64,000 nt of DNA from Catenaria anguillulae PL171 (taxonomy: Eukaryota > Blastocladiomycota > Blastocladiomycetes > Blastocladiales > Catenariaceae), in contig MCFL01000013.1 in NCBI GenBank assembly GCA_002102555.1, forward strand, positions 248,001-312,000, read 5' to 3'. Both the position numbers and the translations under genes were made by a program. Shown here one piece after another: positions 26,736 through 36,076 of this stretch (positions are counted from its first letter, which is position 1; the number at the start of each line of letters is the position of its first letter). The notes below the pieces were generated by a model. That model did not search any database. It was not told where the DNA came from and was given only the letters and a program-made list of their open reading frames with translations.

Positions 26736-28202
26736 TCACAACAAGTACACACCGGCGCCCTCTTTCGGCCCCGACGCAAATACCCACTTATCCCTGGCCT
26801 CTTGCCTACCCACTCCCCTCGGCTCATAGTACCCCTTGTACATGCTTTCAATAAACCCCTCGACCTCACTCTGCCCCTCAAGCAAATGCACCGAACACCC
26901 GCCCCACCCGGCGCCCGTCAACCGCGACCCAAGACTACCATTGGCCTCACCCAGGGCAACCAACTCATCCAGCTCGGCACACGAGCACGTGTACAAGTCG
27001 CGGCACGACACGTGTGAGGCGTGCATGAGGCGGCCCATGGCACGGGCAGATGCGCCGCCGCTGGGTGAGTGCAGCAACGACACCGTGTCAAGCACGCGCC
27101 GAGCTTCCGAGACCACGTGAAGTGTACGGTCGAGCAGGCGAAGCGTGGTGAAGCGCACGGGAAAATCCGACGTGTATTCGCGCTCGAGCGCCGAGGCGGA
27201 GGTGTCGAGAAGGGTAGCAAGCGAGGCAAAGGTGGCGTCGTTGGTCAGGTGCTCGCGAGCAAGTGATTCGAGGTGGGAAAGCTGCGATGCGACGTTGGAG
27301 GTGGGTTGGGAAAAGTCGATCAGGTCGGCAAAAATGTTGGCCGACGGGTTGGTGTGCTGTGCAAGCACTCGAGCCGCCAGCCGTGTCTCGACCACACGCA
27401 AATTGTAGTTTGTCGGCGCAGTTGCGTGCTTATCGGCCGTAACGAGCGAGTGGGCAATCACAAACACTGCGCCGGCGGGCAACGGAACGGGCTCGAGCTT
27501 GAGCTCGGGCGTGAAGTGGACCAGACCCGCTGACGAGGGTTGGGCGAGCATGGAGATGGACTGGTCCATGCCACCAGCATTGACGCCCACAAGACGTTCG
27601 GTTTCAATCGCGACTTGTGTGAGCATTTCTTTGGGGATGGCGGCAAGCCGTTTGGGGTCGTTGGAGAGGGCAAGTCCGAGGGTTGCGAGGACTACGGCAA
27701 CGGTCATGGCCGACGACGACGACAGGCCCGAGCCGGCGGGGACCGTGGAATGGATCAGGTAGCACTGGTCCACTGGTTTGCCCACGACTGAGTTTTCATG
27801 GTTTCCATCGCCAATCAAGCTGAGCACCTTATCGTAGGCGCCAATGTACCCGGCCTGAAAGTAATTGGCCCACTCGAGCCTGGTGGCATCAATGTCGGCG
27901 GCCGAAATCGGATGTGCAAACTCGAGCGGCGCAGCCTCGTACCCAAAGGACCGCGCCAGAACCTTGCCAGTGCCGGGGCGTGTCCCCGCGAGGATCACGA
28001 GGTCCTTGTCAATGGCCATAGGGAGCACTGCAAACCCGGCATAGTCAATGTGCTCGCCAATCAGGTTGACGCGGCCGGGCGCGCGAGCGAGGAGCAGGGC
28101 GTGGGCGGACGGGCCAAAGGCGGCGGCAAAGGCCGTGGTCAGGACGTCGAGACGCGCGGCCGGGATGGGGAGAGTGGCGGTGACGACGGAGGGAGGAGAC
28201 AT
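26736..28202 (-). CDS. Galactokinase / N-acetylgalactosamine kinase (GHMP kinase)
   Basis: Single exon, 488 residues from ATG 28202. ATP-dependent phosphorylation of C1 of galactose or GalNAc. Signatures are the substrate-binding APGRVNLIGEHIDYAGFAVL near the N-terminus, the ATP loop PAGSGLSSSSAM, VGVNAGGMDQSISML with the catalytic Asp, and C-terminal SRLTGAGWGGCSVHLL. The SHVSCRDLYTCSCAELDEL stretch is characteristic of the GALK2/yeast Gal1 subgroup, so either galactose or GalNAc could be the substrate. An in-frame ATG further upstream (about 28286) would add an N-terminus without resemblance to the family, so 28202 is preferred. No neighbouring Leloir genes are present. Confidence 0.92.
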   Translation of the reverse strand: MSPPSVVTATLPIPAARLDVLTTAFAAAFGPSAHALLLARAPGRVNLIGEHIDYAGFAVLPMAIDKDLVILAGTRPGTGKVLARSFGYEAAPLEFAHPISAADIDATRLEWANYFQAGYIGAYDKVLSLIGDGNHENSVVGKPVDQCYLIHSTVPAGSGLSSSSAMTVAVVLATLGLALSNDPKRLAAIPKEMLTQVAIETERLVGVNAGGMDQSISMLAQPSSAGLVHFTPELKLEPVPLPAGAVFVIAHSLVTADKHATAPTNYNLRVVETRLAARVLAQHTNPSANIFADLIDFSQPTSNVASQLSHLESLAREHLTNDATFASLATLLDTSASALEREYTSDFPVRFTTLRLLDRTLHVVSEARRVLDTVSLLHSPSGGASARAMGRLMHASHVSCRDLYTCSCAELDELVALGEANGSLGSRLTGAGWGGCSVHLLEGQSEVEGFIESMYKGYYEPRGVGRQEARDKWVFASGPKEGAGVYLL

Positions 28203-29304
28203 GATGTTAGTCACATGGGGTGAATGATGGCGGGAGAGAAAGCGGAATTGTGACGAAACGTGACAAACCTTCTCGTGTCGCGACATGGCACGCTGGCGGT
28301 GGCGTCTGCTGAGTGTCTCCATGCATGCATTTTATTATTTAATATTCTTTACATCCTTTGCGTGCAATGTCTCGCGCTGTGTCTCACGGCCAGAGCCCAA
28401 CTCACCCATGTCCAACATGTCTCACGGTCCGAGAGCCAATTCGTTTCGGTCTCCAAACTCAACTTCGAGGCACTTGCAATCCCACCTTGCATCGGCGATG
28501 CCCTCCCCCGCAGCCCCCCACCCGCAGCATTCCAAGCGACCAATGTATGCATCTTGGCGTGACCCCGGCCCGAGAGTGTAGCGCCTCGGAAGTCAACGGT
28601 AACTGATTTAGCGACATGTGCCATAAGCCGGTAGAGCTGTCGTGCGATGCATCGCATTCGTCCGGTTTGTCACAGGAGAGGCCCTCACTCGACAAAAGAC
28701 GAGCCAACAGTCACTTGCGACCACAATCAAACTGATTCATAAAGCAGCAGGATATACACTTGGCCATGTCAGAACAGTTCGACTCCACGACGCACCCAAG
28801 GAATGCTTAGGGCGGCCGAGGTCCTCGACTCGCAAGGCTGGCGCCAAAGGGCCAACAAATACTTGCCACTTCTCACTCTTGAGAGTCGAACTCATAAAGG
28901 GCATCTTCCATGGTATGTATTGGTGTCTGAATTTGAGAAAATCCAGATGTAGACAGATACTAGATACATGATCCTAAGAGTATCGTCGATGTAGATCACA
29001 GCAAGAGAGGGAGGAGTGGTGGAGATGGTTTCCCCCATTTGTAGTACCCTCAACCAACTACAGACGTCTAGCTCCCATCTCTACTCACTGGGAGTGAGTC
29101 GCGATCAATGTGCATTATTCACGGCACATGGCAACGACCCACGTGTGGGCGACACAGCCGTCGTGGCAAGTGCGATGAGGCAAGGTGGATGCCGTTGCGT
29201 GGCGCGAGTCCGCACCGTTCGCAATGCGACACACGTATTTACGTGTCAGTCCTATATTGGTGACAGTGCTTGCATAAACGGATTTAGAAACATGAAGGAA
29301 ACAT
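28203..29304. other. intergenic region, 1.1 kb
   Basis: No supported gene. It is AT-rich near 28330-28350 (galactokinase promoter side). Two GTTCGACTC-like tRNA B-box matches, near 28770 and 28880, lack a matching A-box and cloverleaf. The right part is the 3' flank of the inverted metacaspase-like copy. Confidence 0.4.
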
Positions 29305-30436
29305 CTACATCATCTCATTGGGGTCCTGCTCAATCCAACCATCCGGCGGCGGGGGGCCCGGCTCGGAGTTCTTGCTCGCCTCAATCAATGCCAGCAATAA
29401 CTCGCCCAAGAAATGCCCAGCGTTTTCCGCTGTACCTGCATGCGCGCTTCCCGCCCTTTCCTGGAGCGAAGACTCGGCTTCGCCCTCGCCTGGAGCGTCT
29501 TGGTGCTCTTGATCAGCCTCATCGTCCGCGGCAGCCTGAGCAGCGGCCAAGTCGTTGGTCGCGTCGTCAGTGTGCGCCGCAAGCGATCCGGAAAAGATGG
29601 GAGTATCGAGGACTGGGGAAGAGGTATTTAAGATACAGTCAGAAACCGACCGCGATGGAAAGGGGTGGGAACGAAATGGAGATGACGTACGCTCGTTGTT
29701 GCTGGCAGAGACGTTGACAGTTTGTGCTTGCTCGTGCGGAATACGTGCATTGATTTCGGCGGCGACTTGGCTCCACGTGTAGTCCGGGTGCTCTTGCAAG
29801 ATAGCCTCAAACTCGGACACAAAGGTCGTGTTGTCGGCCGTCCCATAGACGGTTTCGCCGTCGGCCGACGAAGCGATGCACACAATGTTGGCGTCCAGCG
29901 AGCCCACGTCCAGATCGGCCAAGGTGCCAGCGGATTGTTGGTCGAAAGCAAGTGTCTATGAATGTCCATGTAAGGGGGTGGGTGATCGGGATGAGCATCA
30001 AAACCACTACTGATTACGGAAGAATGGTTGCGTTGGTACATACCATATCCACGCCCGCTGGCAACTGGCCCAGAATCTCGCGGATCTCAGAGTCCAAGAT
30101 CGGGCCATCCGATGCCCACATGACCTCATTCATCCCATCGGCTTCGCACTCGGCGCTGCCCTCGGCAACGGGAACTTGGCCGCCGTATCCGAGTGCGCTA
30201 AACATGAGCTGATCTCCCGGTTCTGCTTGAGCAACCATGTCACGCAATGTTGACAAGATGTCGTCGCGCGTCACGTCCTGGCCATTTTTGTCGGTGAGAT
30301 AGTCGATCTTGCCGTAAATGCCGGTGCTGTCAACGAGGTCGACCATGTTGGCCGATGCGGGGCCAAAGACGGGCGTGTGAGGGACCGACGGGTGGTCAGG
30401 GCAGGTCATGCCGAGAACAAGTGCAGCGTTGGGCAT
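29305..30436 (-). CDS. Metacaspase-like pseudoenzyme, copy A (catalytic His and Cys replaced)
   Basis: Exons 30436-30044, 29955-29691 and 29612-29305 give 321 residues. The order of elements follows the metacaspase p20/p10 fold: AALVLGM strand, IDYLTDKNG..TRDDILSTLRDMV, AEPGDQLMF, YGGQ, ADGMNEVMW, GPILDSEIREIL, LPAGVDMTLAFD, then DANIVCIASSADGET and an EINARI helix. The catalytic His of the SGHGGQ motif is Tyr (residue 84). The Cys of DSCHSG is Gln (residue 138, in FDQQSAG). The protein therefore cannot act as a cysteine peptidase of this family. The linker between p20 and p10 is short. The tail is acidic and Ala/Glu-rich and differs from copy B, while the first two exons and introns are almost identical to it. 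It may be a regulatory partner of an active metacaspase; that is inference. Confidence 0.75.
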
Positions 30437-30447
30437 GGTGGGATGGT
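29512..30447 (-). repeat. Inverted repeat arm A (about 0.94 kb, near-identical to arm B)
   Basis: Reverse complement of 34926-35857 with roughly a dozen substitutions and one small indel in intron 2. Intron 1 (88 bases) is identical in both arms. Similarity begins about 11 bases before the ATG and drops sharply inside the last exon. Confidence 0.85.
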
Positions 30448-31194
30448 TGTGCTTGTGGGTGAAGGGAGGTGAATGGGGTGTTCAATGAGAAATTCCTTCA
30501 CGATGACAGGGGGTGGCATTGCCTTTTTATGCTTGGCTTATTGGTGAGCCTTCGATTCTGTAACGACACTCTGGGAAACTGGATCGATTACATACACGAT
30601 GGGTTGCCGGGCGAATGCTATGGTCATCGTGCTCGGCCCTCAACTCGGCTTGTTCCTTTTCCCACTGCGGGCGGTCGCGCATGATCTGCGGTGCTTGACC
30701 GTTCCAATGATTACATGTGTCTAGACTAATGCATTGGTAGCGAGTTCAACAAGTTTGTTTTACCGTGCGGTGTGTGGTTGCGGTGGAGATTCCCATCACC
30801 GCCGTTTGGGCGGTAAGTGTACAAGTACTCTGGATCCCATTGGAGGTTCTCTTGCAAGCAAGCCAGCCATGATGAAGAGAGGCCTGGGCTGTCATCCTGA
30901 AATCATTTGCCGTCGTTCGACCCGACGCTATGTAATTGTTCTTGTGCGGATCACCACCAATGTATAGCTATAGATAAACACATGAATGTTTCTTCCTTCG
31001 ACATCTGTGACTGCATGCCTCCCTCAGCTCGCCCATACTCTCGGCAACAAGCCAGCCTTCATCCCTAACTTCTTCCAAGCTTCTTCAATATCCCCGACCG
31101 CACCGTTCTTTCGCTCGTCACCTGCCTTCACTCAGGCTCTCAACTCGAAGAGCCACCCAATTCCCTCCACGGCCCCGGAGCGGGCCGGGCCGCC
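30448..31194. other. promoter side of pseudo-metacaspase copy A and flank of the transposon remnant
   Basis: About 750 bases, no gene supported. The sequence diverges completely from the corresponding upstream region of copy B, so the duplicated block does not include a shared promoter. Confidence 0.4.
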
Positions 31195-33051
31195 GTGAAT
31201 GATCATGCCAGGCCGATGATATGGTGCGCAGCTTGCAACCGGTCCTTCAACAAGGGTCGTGGAACAGACATCAAGCTACGCCGACTCAAACCAACACTCG
31301 CTCATTCGTCGAAACTCGCCGTCGGACCAAGCTGCGGCAAGCAACATCCACGAACCCGATCGTCAGCTTCCTCGACCATCAACCCTTACAACGCCGCAAA
31401 TCAACCGCACATCACTCCCATTGACGGCGCCGCGGCCTTCGACGCCGCCACTTCGCTCAACTCTGGTGATGACCAGCAACAACGCAACCATGCCCCCTTG
31501 CGCCTCCGACACGCCCGGCTACTTCTCTTCACTCCCAAGCAATGATATCCCCGCCTTCGCCGATTGACCTTTCCGCAACCGTCGCCTCCCAAGCGTCCCA
31601 ACCGGGCCTGGACGTCATGGTTCCGATACGCTGTCGGATCACATTGATACCGACGGCGAATCAAGTGACCAGGAGCCAGAGTTTGACGACCACAACGACA
31701 CCATCGACGATCACACGCGCAATTCCATTTTCTGATCTCCCATGGAGTGGACGCTGGTTTTACGCCCTGTACGTTCGTGCCCCTTCTTCTGTTGGTTACA
31801 AAGCCTCTCTTTGCGTTGCCTGATTTGTTTCCTGAGTGGACGCTGCTCCACAGACCAAGGCAAAGGCCGACTCCGACAGCCCTTATTGCCCGTTTTCAAA
31901 GCGCCTTGACGCCATTCTTCATGTGATCTGCAGTACCGATCCAACGCTTACCCGCTGCCACGTTCAAGCATTCTTGTGGGCTCTCCGGGAAGCAGGTGTC
32001 AAGGACGTTCCTTCGTACGTTTGCTCGCTGCGCGATCTGGTCCCAATGCCCGTCATCAAGTCTGCCAAATGCATCAGTGGCCGCGCCGGCCTTTTTTCCT
32101 TTCGCCCAGTCTCGGAAACTGTCAAGCTCTTTGCCGTGGATCCGTCTGTCTATCCTCACCTCGCCACGTTGCCAAGGAGGGTTGGTGGAGCAGTCCACGA
32201 TTTCACGGATACACCCCGCGCCCGCAAGTTGTTTGAATCATTTCGGGTCGCCAACATCAGTCATGGTGGGCACCTGTTTTTCGTGGCCGATTTTGTTGAG
32301 TGGCGTGATCCAGCTACAGGCGCGACTCGGCTCGCGCGCGCTCCAAGCGCGCCAGCTTGGACGTCTTGGGGCAGGACAAGGGTGAAGTCTATGTCACATT
32401 GCGCGAGTGCAAGTGGGTGAATGTCAAGTTGGTCGTTTTGGCGAGCGAGCCAGTGGGCGTGCTTCCAGACAACGCTCGAGGTATGTCTTATGTGACCTGT
32501 GTGCCTCATGGGTTTGCAAACCAAGCGTGCTGACATTGTCCTTGCTTCTTCATGGTCGATTGACTTGTATCTATTGCAGCAGCCAGATGGCTCATGCGTC
32601 AAGCCGACTACAGATGAGGCCAAGTGGATTGAAACCCGACGCCGACTCCGCGCGCTTGCTCGAGATCATGGTGCTGCGCGTATTGCTCCGATTCTCATTG
32701 GTCTCTGGGCGGATGAGGCTTCAGGCACTCTTTCCAAGCGCTCCGCTCATTTCGAAACTTGGCAATTCCACGTCGCAAATCTCCCGGCACATCTGAACCA
32801 GCACCCAACAATCATACAATTTATTGCCGCCGCCAAGAACGTGGAATGCCTTGATATTGCCAATGCCGCGGTGCATGACATTCAGTCCGAGCTCAAAAAG
32901 GGTCTTGTTTGTGTTCCTCCGAATGGCGAAACGGCGATCATGGTCGGTACCGCATCTTACTTCATGGGGGATGGACCCAAGCACTCGCAACCACGCCGGC
33001 ATCCGCTCCATCTTTTTCTGCCGCATGTGCGAGCATGAGCGCACCTTGTGA
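31195..33051 (+). pseudogene. Decayed transposon-like multicopy fungal protein gene
   Basis: Fragments in several frames line up, in order, with a protein family I remember as highly multicopy in Agaricomycetes and transposon-like. A possible Cys/His element (WCAACNRSF) comes first, then an acidic Ser/Asp region. SPYCPFSKRLDAILHVI ... LTRCHVQAFLWALREAGVKD follows, then IAPILIGLWADEASGTLSKR ... FETWQFHVANLP, and finally GIRSIFFCRMCEHE. Intron-like gaps are seen (31770-31854 and near 32481-32580, the latter GTATGT...TTGCAG). The frame breaks near 32345 and near 32980, and the reading stops at 33051, well short of the family's usual length. No terminal inverted repeats or target duplications are evident. 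It sits exactly between the inverted metacaspase-like arms. The family assignment is from memory and needs a profile search. Confidence 0.45.
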
Positions 33052-33465
33052 CAGTTGGCGTCTCCCAATCGTTCCACGCCCTTCTTTGCTCTTCTTTGAT
33101 TCCTTCCTGCATTGACCTCAAGCCTTCTCCGTCACCCACCAATCATGTCGCTCCCACTCCATTGCTGTTTCCACACATTTTCCCTTTTGTCAACACCAAG
33201 TCTACTCGCCTCCTTCCTTGATTCATCTCCTCGCCATTGCCGCCTCCTTCATTTCTCATTGTCCAATTACAAGCTATTTTGCCACTACCAAGAGTGACTT
33301 CATTTCCGCTTCCCAACCTTCAAACCACATTTCTTGCATTACTCGCCAATCAGTTCCTTTTCAATATTGTGTCTTTGTCATCAAGTCACCTCGCTCGTTC
33401 CACTCGCCTGCTTCTTTGATGCCTTTGCCTCGCTTTACTTGCTCTTCTCATTGACATCAATTTAG

Positions 33466-33693
33466 CTGCCCCGCTTGGAACGCTTGGCCGCGAGCCCGCG
33501 GTACAGGCTTCATCATTGCCGTCTGCTCCACCTTCCTCAGGATTGAGCACGCCATCCAATGCGTCACGCGTGCAGTCTTTGCCGGCCTCCGAGTTGGGCA
33601 CTAGGACATCCACGCAAGGGCGACAAGCACGACGAGTCCGAGGACGACTTCCAATTGGACAACGAAGACTGGTCCAAGTATCTGAGTGGTTAA
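33466..33693 (+). pseudogene. Possible 3' exon fragment with acidic C-terminus
   Basis: After a good acceptor (AATTTAG) the sequence reads as a Ser/Pro-rich peptide. After a one-base frame change near 33618 it ends DKHDESEDDFQLDNEDW...KYLSG before a stop. It could be the tail of the transposon-like gene or of another dead gene. No upstream exon was identified, and the shift again looks like one missing base. Confidence 0.2.
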
Positions 33694-34814
33694 TTTTGAA
33701 ATCTCGCCGCTGCGTTGTCGTTCTGTGTTGCCACTCATGTTTTTTTTTTCTGACACTTGTGGGTGTGTGTAAGGAACGAGGCATGCCCATTGGCGTGCCC
33801 GTGTTCTTGTTTTTCCACTGATGGACTTGTCGGTGTTGTTGCTCCCATGCACTCATCTCACTTTTTCTCCATGCACTCTCCTTCCAGTACTTACCATGTA
33901 CCCAATGTGACACCGGGTATGGCCGTGTATACATAGACTCAAGATCGTCATCTGTGTTGAATTATCTTGACTTGTCTTGTCTTGTCGTTGCATTCCAATT
34001 TCTTACCCTCATACCTATTCTGACTCGCCACACAATTTTGAAATATTCGTCAAGGTTATGTATTCACCCAATGCCCAGCTCCCACCTGCTCTGCCGTCCT
34101 GACGGAACTAAATTGCTCTCACATCGGTTTGAGTCCCTGCCTTATTGGATTTGGCTATGTAGCGGATTCCGGGATGCCGGTAGGCAAACGTCATGACCTA
34201 GAGAACTCCATGTTCGGCGTGGCAATTTGCTCTCTAGAGCTTCACGTATACTGATTCAGAGTAAGGTGTGACAAGACGCTGATAACTGGGGATCGGTGTG
34301 CCTCGCTCAAGCCCTCGATCTGGCGGGATGCAACATGCGGGTGTTACAACATGTCTCAGCGCCATGGTGCTGTGGCACCAGTGAGCTGAGCTGAAATCGG
34401 GTTGAGACTACATATGGTTGGTCGTGCATGATTGCACAAAGAAATGTCTCACGCGCCTGTGGCACATGGTCCAGTTGATGCGCACGGTGGTTTCGGCAAC
34501 ATTGCTGGAGTGTAAATTTCGAATACCCGCGGCAGACGTGCGCACAGCATTTTTCCATGGTGTTCGGGCACAGGGACGGGTCCTCTATCGGTGCGGTATA
34601 CAAAATCGCGGTTTGCAGCCAGAAGTGCGGTCCACATCCCGGGCCGCCAATGTGTATATACTATGGGAACTTGGGCACAGCGGCGAGAACGGTGCACGCT
34701 CGACTTCACATTCGAATTCCAGCATCGTGGCGTATCTTCCTGTGGGTTTGGGCGACAGTGTGAATACTTTGCCGCTGTCGTCTGAATCCGTCGAAGCCAA
34801 TCCGAGGCGCTGGC

Positions 34815-34822
34815 CGATAAAT
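34815..34822 (+). promoter_or_regulatory. TATA-like element
   Basis: ATAAATAG about 120 bases before the ATG of pseudo-metacaspase copy B. It is a consensus match only; copy A lacks the same upstream sequence. Confidence 0.25.
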
Positions 34823-34925
34823 AGGGGCGTCGGACTCTTGCGCCATACACGGTTAGATCCTCATTAGTCTTCACAGCCAACTGAAATCAATCCCCACTTT
34901 CCTCTACCCACTTTTCCCAAGTACC

Positions 34926-35857
34926 ACCATCCCACCATGCCCAACGCTGCACTTGTTCTCGGCATGACCTGCCCTGACCACCCGTCGGTCCCTCACACGC
35001 CCGTGTTTGGCCCCGCATCGGCCAACATGGTCGACCTCGTTGACAGCACCGGCATTTACGGCAAGATCGACTACCTCACCGACAAGAATGGCCAGGACGT
35101 GACGCGCGACGACATCTTGTCAGCATTGCGCGACATGGTTGCTCAGGCAGAACCAGGAGATCAGCTCATGTTTAGCGCACTCGGATACGGCGGCCAAGTT
35201 CCCGTTGCCGAGGGCAGCGCCGAGTGCGAAGCCGATGGGATGAATGAGGTCATGTGGGCGTCGGATGGCCCGATCTTGGACTCTGAGATTCGCGAGATTC
35301 TGGGCGAGTTGCCAGCGGGCGTGGATATGGTATGTACCAACGCAACCATTCTTCCGTAATCAGTAGTGGTTTTGATGCTCATCCCGATCACCCACCCCCT
35401 TACATGGACATTCATAGACACTTGCTTTCGACCAACAATCCGCTGGCACCTTGGCCGATCTGGACGTGGGCTCGCTGGACGCCAACATTGTGTGCATCGC
35501 TTCGTCGGCCGACGGCGAAACCGCCTATGGGACGGCCGACAACACGACCTTTGTGTCCGAGTTTGAGGCTGTCTTGCAAGAGCACCCAGACTACACGTGG
35601 AGCCAAGTCGCCGCTGAAATCAATGCACGTATTCCGCACGATCAAGCACAAACCGTCAACGTCTCTGCCAGCAACAACGAGCGTACGTCATCTCCATTTC
35701 GTTCCCACCCCTTTCCATCGCGGTCGGTTTCTGACTTTTTCTTACCTCTTCCCCAGTCCTCGATACTCCCATCTTTTCTGGATCGCTTGCGGCGCACACC
35801 AACGACGCGACCAACGACTTGGCCGCTGCTCAGGCTGCCGCAGACGATGAGGCTGAT
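34926..35857 (+). repeat. Inverted repeat arm B (about 0.93 kb, near-identical to arm A)
   Basis: Inverted partner of 29512-30447. The arms are separated by about 4.5 kb. Such an arrangement can invert, form a hairpin, or undergo gene conversion. Confidence 0.85.
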
Positions 35858-36076
35858 GATGCTGATCATGGCCACGAATACACCGAAGAGGAACCGCCGT
35901 TGGAAGCCAAGGGTGGGTCGAGTTTTGGTAGCGCACAAGCGAATGCCGAGAATGCTGGCGCTTGGCTGGGCGAACTGCTGGTTGCCCTCAAGGACGAACT
36001 CGCCGAGGTCGAGTCCAAGCCCATGGAGCCTCTGCCTGAAGAGTTGCAAGGGTTCGACAACGGTATCATGATGTAG
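34937..36076 (+). CDS. Metacaspase-like pseudoenzyme, copy B (catalytic His and Cys replaced)
   Basis: Exons 34937-35329, 35418-35682 and 35757-36076 give 325 residues. The caspase-fold order and substitutions are the same as in copy A: Tyr84 in place of the catalytic His (ALGYGGQ) and Gln138 in place of the catalytic Cys (FDQQSAG). The supporting Asp before it and the acidic DGMNEV loop remain. The first about 250 residues are almost identical to copy A. The C-terminal about 75 residues differ (EYTEEEPPLEAKGG here) but share an ENAG..LGELL.AL motif, so the tails are homologous and diverged. Coding capacity and splice sites are fully intact, and most differences are synonymous or conservative. 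This argues for a functioning protein rather than a dead copy. Confidence 0.75.

Follow-up and report, generated by a model that had tools for sequence, protein, structure and literature searches.

Two genes of Catenaria anguillulae with a metacaspase fold and a replaced catalytic dyad, and the paralogue family to which they belong

Can a metacaspase domain be retained after the residues that perform the cleavage have been replaced, and what would such a protein do? This question is raised by two genes, here called A and B, in a window of 64,000 nucleotides (nt) from Catenaria anguillulae PL171 (contig MCFL01000013.1 of assembly GCA_002102555.1, positions 248,001 to 312,000 of the forward strand). 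The window means this whole stretch, and positions without a contig name refer to it. C. anguillulae (Blastocladiomycota) is tabulated as a facultative nematode parasite (PMC6690862). On the sequences and a predicted structure, the safest statement is that both proteins are retained and should not be proteolytic.

Fold and catalytic positions of A and B

Gene A (321 amino acids) is located on the minus strand at positions 29305-30436, with exons at 30436-30044, 29955-29691 and 29612-29305. Gene B (325 amino acids) lies on the plus strand at 34937-36076 and consists of the exons 34937-35329, 35418-35682 and 35757-36076. Both splice models contain three exons and GT-AG introns, and no internal stop codon was found. 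The two genes are on record at NCBI as predicted proteins: B is identical to BCR44DRAFT_1459855 (P0001) over all 325 residues (100%), and A agrees with a partial record (P0002) except for the last residue. A sequence-only reading of this region had proposed two intact genes carrying the ordered metacaspase motifs, and all of the motifs that it quoted are present.

The Pfam family Peptidase_C14 (PF00656) matched A with 25.3 bits and B with 29.4 bits, both above the cut-off of 21.4; a search of NCBIfam gave no match for the query. Using phmmer with protein B alone, yeast Mca1 (4f6o) was found with an E-value of 6e-9. Against a profile of ten family members the E-value of Mca1 was 1.7e-34, with a strong p20 match and the p10 segment as a weaker second stretch (i-Evalue 0.045). 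The p20 match begins at the first residues of A and B and a short linker leads on to p10, so that a prodomain is absent and the order of the two segments is kept. When 15 family members were scanned with PF00656, 12 matched at E ≤ 0.01 and three gave no match.

The predicted structure, which was computed from an alignment of five sequences (mean predicted local distance difference test score, pLDDT, 62), contains the caspase alpha/beta fold. Its best Foldseek match was GSU0716 of Geobacter (PDB 3bij; E 8e-14), and the p10-like stretch falls inside the part of the model that aligns to metacaspases, which extends up to residue 227-230. A model from the single sequence was poor (pLDDT 44) and was discarded. 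Profile matches and model together indicate that A and B carry the p20-p10 caspase fold, in agreement with the fold assignment of the sequence-only reading, which had named a missing caspase fold as grounds for its refutation.

In alignments to yeast Mca1, the position of the catalytic His is occupied by Tyr84 and that of the catalytic Cys by Gln138 in both genes, as had been proposed. The codons are TAC at 35186-35188 and CAA at 35436-35438 in B (plus strand), and the corresponding codons of A are located at 30185-30187 and 29935-29937 (minus strand). Tyr and Gln were found in all four copies read, namely A, B and their apparent alleles on contigs C451 and C210.

The substrate pocket is altered as well. 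The S1 residues of TbMCA2 are C92, D95, S156 and D211 (PMC4357240), and by alignment the first three correspond to F24, A27 and L82 in A and B, while D211 is kept as D136; three of the four are therefore changed. The letters of C92, D95 and S156 are also missing in C64 and C35_223k, two relatives of A and B with an intact His/Cys dyad. Since these relatives share the change, the dyad was presumably lost after the pocket had been modified in this clade. For the Ca2+ site, the ligands G196, D198, D214, T242 and D245 described for CgMCA-I (PMC9622860) correspond to G101, N103, D115, T142 and D145 in A and B, so that one side-chain ligand appears to differ. From these positions and the predicted fold, A and B would lack proteolysis by a cysteine mechanism, and their function may be independent of Ca2+.

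Repeated dyad loss in a paralogue family

A search of the same genome with protein B resulted in at least 32 loci of small, prodomain-less paralogues, one of them weak (C399:107k), and two divergent members used as genome queries revealed no locus beyond those found with B. The Pfam model added at least four loci that look like yeast-type metacaspases (C429, C403 twice and C63); the Cys motif could be read in all four and the His motif in three, that of C63 being ambiguous. Collapsing apparently allelic contigs, which were recognised by similarity (dS, the synonymous divergence, of about 0.03-0.16), leaves approximately 19 genes of the small family. For the comparison of 17 members, apparent alleles were counted once and the near-identical second C457/C1 copy was excluded. 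Locus C399_107k was likewise kept out of the tree and of the counts, as a weak match (E 9.4e-4) with Val at the His column and an exon for the Cys that was not modelled.

The His/Cys dyad is kept in six of the 17 members (C35_223k, C64, C435a, C435b, C290 and C57), so paralogues with the dyad exist in the same genome. The remaining 11 have lost it and show nine residue pairs in all: YQ in A and B, HA in C236, RE in C1_1278k, SD in C146_342k, NS in C146_240k, YD in C35_48k, LA in C457, HS in C430 and C272, and TA in C334. In C430 and C457 a Cys is found one position ahead of the catalytic column. The description of A and B as a pair of pseudoenzymes thus holds for the replacement of both dyad residues, but they are not a lone pair; the large family in which dyad loss is common had been overlooked, as had the inverted repeat described below.

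Searches beyond this genome were of limited reach. Protein-database searches returned only five proteins, all from Catenaria; since each search scored only about 8000 candidates and most paralogues entered in the query alignments failed to appear, being either unannotated or missed, this result is uninformative on other species. Scans of bacterial genomes and viral contigs with family-specific patterns, which did not seek ordinary bacterial metacaspases, confirmed no relative, and in a phage collection a single weak match was seen (E 6e-6), which covers 39% of the query.

The changes are not spread evenly over the domain. Across the six His/Cys members, yeast Mca1 and GSU0716, 21 columns are invariant. 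None of the 11 dyad-lost members retains Cys138; S140 is kept in two, His84 in three, and T142 and S159 in four each, whereas G85 (six), G141 (seven) and V183 (eight) are partly eroded. The other 13 of the 21 columns are kept in 9 to 11 members, with A5, G9, D75, G101, G111 and D136 present in 11 of 11. The group is defined by the loss of one or both dyad residues, but this definition implies neither the universal loss of the Cys nor the drift of its neighbours while Gly and Asp residues of the structure persist. In the alignment the erosion is centred on the catalytic site, with the exception of S159, which belongs to p10.

Column 103, which corresponds to D198 of CgMCA-I by the yeast alignment, carries Asp in 5 of 6 His/Cys members vs. 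1 of 11 dyad-lost members (Fisher p 0.0054 on raw counts). The same position of CgMCA-I was equated with D173 of TbMCA2 in PMC9622860. A coupling between loss of the dyad and loss of this ligand was not significant when relatedness was considered, because only two independent pairs on well-supported branches were available.

Trees were computed with and without the functional columns. A, B and C1_1278k form a clade of five members with the His/Cys genes C64 and C35_223k (support 99/98 and 97/98), and C334 groups with the His/Cys genes C435a and C435b (support 96/95 and 85/93). A single clade of all 11 dyad-lost members was rejected by the approximately unbiased (AU) test (p-AU 0.00057). If loss is irreversible and both clades are right, the dyad was lost at least three times, and the fewest state changes on the best tree are five. 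These topologies indicate that dyad loss arose more than once.

Differences between copies are mostly synonymous, in line with the proposal of the sequence-only reading that the genes are kept under selection. Six pairs of apparent alleles of dyad-lost genes show, pooled, 47 synonymous and 14 nonsynonymous differences (ratio of nonsynonymous to synonymous differences per site, pN/pS, 0.094), and the pooled value for five His/Cys allele pairs is 0.16. The pooled figures include B/C451 and leave out A/C451, and gene conversion can obscure counts of this kind. Between A and B themselves, codons 1-226 contain 11 synonymous and five nonsynonymous differences (ratio of the corresponding rates, dN/dS, about 0.13). 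By these counts the dyad-lost genes are not visibly under weaker constraint than the His/Cys genes, and the dyad-lost proteins seem to be kept by selection.

Inverted repeat, allelic copies and C-terminal tails

Genes A and B are embedded in an inverted repeat. One arm of 827 nt at positions 29629-30455 covers the coding sequence of the domain together with intron 1 and some of intron 2, and is 98% identical to the second arm at 34918-35744; these longer arms are 4462 nt apart. A second block of 115 nt (97%) at 29512-29626, with its partner at 35743-35857, extends the tract into exon 3. In windows of 100 nt, A and B were 95-100% identical over a stretch that starts about 20 nt 5' of the ATG, includes the introns and runs to about codon 250. 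Past this point the identity was about 55% for the tail and 38-50% for the flanks, values that a forced alignment yields. The diverged tails comprise positions 29305-29511 (minus strand) in A and 35858-36076 (plus strand) in B, the latter with a model confidence below 50. Accordingly, dS is 0.085 in codons 1-250; for codons 253-321, whose alignment is uncertain, synonymous sites are saturated.

The arms are likely a gene-conversion tract. As the domain half is alike and the tails and flanks have diverged, the simplest account would be that the genes duplicated long ago and that conversion has recently homogenised their domain halves. The copy on contig C451, the apparent allele of B, differs over 209 codons from A by nine synonymous and four nonsynonymous changes and from B by 11 and five, respectively. 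It is equally near to both, which is consistent with continuing exchange.

Both genes are present on further contigs, with a B-like tail on C451 and an A-like tail on C210. Apparent frame breaks were found in copies of family genes on the smaller contigs C451, C210 and C222. Those of C210 look like sequencing indels, since the comparison with A shows 3 mismatches but 13 gap openings in 1835 nt, and the breaks in all three copies are probably of this kind.

The spacer between A and B contains two open frames at 31836-33038 (plus strand), for which no Pfam match was obtained at E 0.1. Besides itself, the spacer matched contig C451 (95%) and five short fragments in the genome. A galactokinase-like gene with the domains GalKase_gal_bdg and GHMP kinase is located beside gene A at 26736-28322 (minus strand). 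A second inverted pair of the family, with the L/A dyad, was observed on two apparently allelic contigs, C457 (10201-10824, plus; 33866-34489, minus) and C1 (514837-515457, plus; 538268-538888, minus), the copies being nearly identical and about 23 kb apart.

The C-termini vary among the paralogues, and many appear acidic by eye. The ends were read in nine dyad-lost members (A, B, C236, C1_1278k, C146_342k, C146_240k, C35_48k, C457 and C430) and in five His/Cys members (C35_223k, C435a, C435b, C290 and C57), those of C435a and C435b being candidate splices. The last residues are CC in C236, C35_48k and C457 and CDC in C1_1278k, which amounts to 4 of 9 dyad-lost vs. 0 of 5 His/Cys members. Such CC and CXC ends resemble the prenylation ends of Rab proteins. 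A and B end in MM. In C290, a His/Cys member listed together with C378, a linker rich in Lys and Arg is followed by a long poly-Glu tail.

Possible role of A and B and comparison with known systems

The reading that we favour, as probable though by no means certain, is that A and B are dedicated pseudo-metacaspases with a scaffold or adaptor role, two members of a paralogue family that discarded the dyad repeatedly while keeping the fold. The caspase fold would dock a conserved partner without catalysis; this partner could be a His/Cys paralogue or something that is bound by this paralogue as well, and the paralogue-specific C-terminal tail would set the place or the partner of action. By analogy, an adaptor with the caspase fold as binding surface fits best, with precedents in CrMCA-II, for whose thermoprotective function catalysis is not needed and a link to the plasma membrane is described (PMC10896300), and in TbMCA4, a lipidated membrane pseudopeptidase. 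Several points weigh against it. Deep branches of the trees are poorly supported, pairs were taken as allelic on the ground of similarity, apparent frame breaks occur in C451 and C222, which were among the copies compared, the fold model rests on only five aligned sequences with its mean pLDDT of 62, and A and B may be active via another residue.

Such activity, with new residues taking over at the old dyad (e.g., H/S in C430 and C272 or the shifted Cys in C430), is in our view very improbable. It would agree with the variety of nine pairs among 11 members and with the Cys one position early in C430 and C457, but no common new dyad could be recognised, the flanking columns drift (G85, S140 and T142 kept in 6, 2 and 4 of 11), and Tyr and Gln offer no obvious nucleophile. 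We give scarcely any credit to A and B being decaying pseudogenes or an assembly artefact of the inverted repeat. Duplicates are often lost, and frame breaks are seen in the apparent alleles on C451 and C210; against this, the frames of A and B are open with GT-AG introns, dN/dS is about 0.13 in codons 1-226, the breaks on C210 look like sequencing indels and both genes recur on C451 and C210.

A regulator or decoy in cell death or proteostasis had been suggested as a possibility by the sequence-only reading. As a decoy or competitive inhibitor, the pseudoenzyme would use an acidic S1 pocket to hold and shield Arg/Lys substrates of active metacaspases. D136, the equivalent of Asp211, is found in 17 of 17 members, the dyad-lost C35_48k, C457 and C334 retain the equivalents of D95, S156 and D211 (not of C92), and cyanobacterial pseudo-orthocaspases retain both pocket Asp residues (PMC6426788). 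However, in A and B three of the four pocket residues are changed (F24, A27 and L82), and Asp at the D95 column (4 of 6 His/Cys vs. 4 of 11 dyad-lost members, Fisher p 0.33) shows no link to the dyad. Because of the changed pocket we consider a decoy improbable for A and B; it could apply to C35_48k, C457 and C334. Doubtful as well is a membrane-anchored recognition or signalling family with lipidated C-termini and diversifying tails that senses self or stress. The ends in CC and CDC, with their likeness to Rab proteins, would suit it, as would TbMCA4, which is myristoylated and palmitoylated at the plasma membrane (PMC10896300), but A and B end in MM and the domain is constrained, not diversifying. 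Moreover, the CC ends may count only once, as C236, C35_48k and C457 are perhaps closely related. A broader proposal is that a metacaspase gave rise to a large, mostly non-proteolytic multigene family in a zoosporic fungus, with the Cys always and the His mostly lost, the rest of the fold under purifying selection and the members acting as adaptors or in recognition. The family could serve as such a set because the tails differ much, some with putative lipid-anchor ends, and domain sequence was exchanged by gene conversion within one pair or more; we regard this as unlikely but worth considering. For A and B, the adaptor role is retained as the preferred reading.

No report on a pseudo-metacaspase family of Catenaria was found in the open-access literature searched, which does not prove its absence, and there the term "pseudo-metacaspase" was met only in work on bacterial pseudo-orthocaspases. 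The main text of three reviews that touch on fungal metacaspases (PMC13304501, PMC9820594, PMC12914765) contains neither the string "chytrid" nor "blastoclad". A survey from 2019 described pseudo-proteases among prokaryotic caspase homologues as seemingly confined to orthocaspases, with TbMC4 as a parallel (PMC6426788).

A and B are similar to Trypanosoma brucei MCA4 (TbMCA-Id) in being eukaryotic metacaspase proteins and in the replacement of His by Tyr and of the Cys. TbMCA4 is described as a type I pseudo-metacaspase with the dyad YS that is functional though catalytically inactive (PMC6657590, PMC10896300). They differ in the dyad (YQ instead of YS), in the N-myristoylation and palmitoylation of TbMCA4 and in their fungal origin. 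In T. brucei, TbMCA4 is one of two dyad-substituted genes named, whereas in Catenaria most of a large family is affected. A non-proteolytic role was also reported for AtMC2 (PMC9622860).

Yeast-type type I metacaspases (Mca1/Yca1, CgMCA-I) are distinguished from A and B by a prodomain, a longer p20-p10 linker and the His/Cys dyad; compared to CgMCA-I, A and B also carry Asn103 at the D198 ligand and an altered S1 pocket. GSU0716, the best structural match, likewise has no long prodomain, but unlike A and B it retains His/Cys and all four S1 residues.

Orthocaspases consist of a p20 domain without p10. Bacterial pseudo-orthocaspases are described as common in cyanobacteria and alphaproteobacteria, with YS, YN, YA, FS, QC and HA dyads, a frequent change of His to Tyr, a position scattered among true forms and two highly conserved S1 Asp residues, both kept in the cyanobacterial forms; bacterial pseudo-metacaspases were 4 of 1,121 (PMC6426788). 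The Catenaria family resembles them in its several dyad types, in the change of His to Tyr and in the occurrence of pseudo among true forms, but A and B contain the p10 segment (a weak profile match) and have lost one of the two S1 Asp residues. Pseudo-metacaspases as such are already known; new is a eukaryotic family with repeated dyad loss. With 11 of 17 members affected, nine different pairs at the dyad and multiple origins, it provides a natural mutagenesis series for metacaspase function without cutting, in which it becomes testable which surfaces stay once catalysis is gone.
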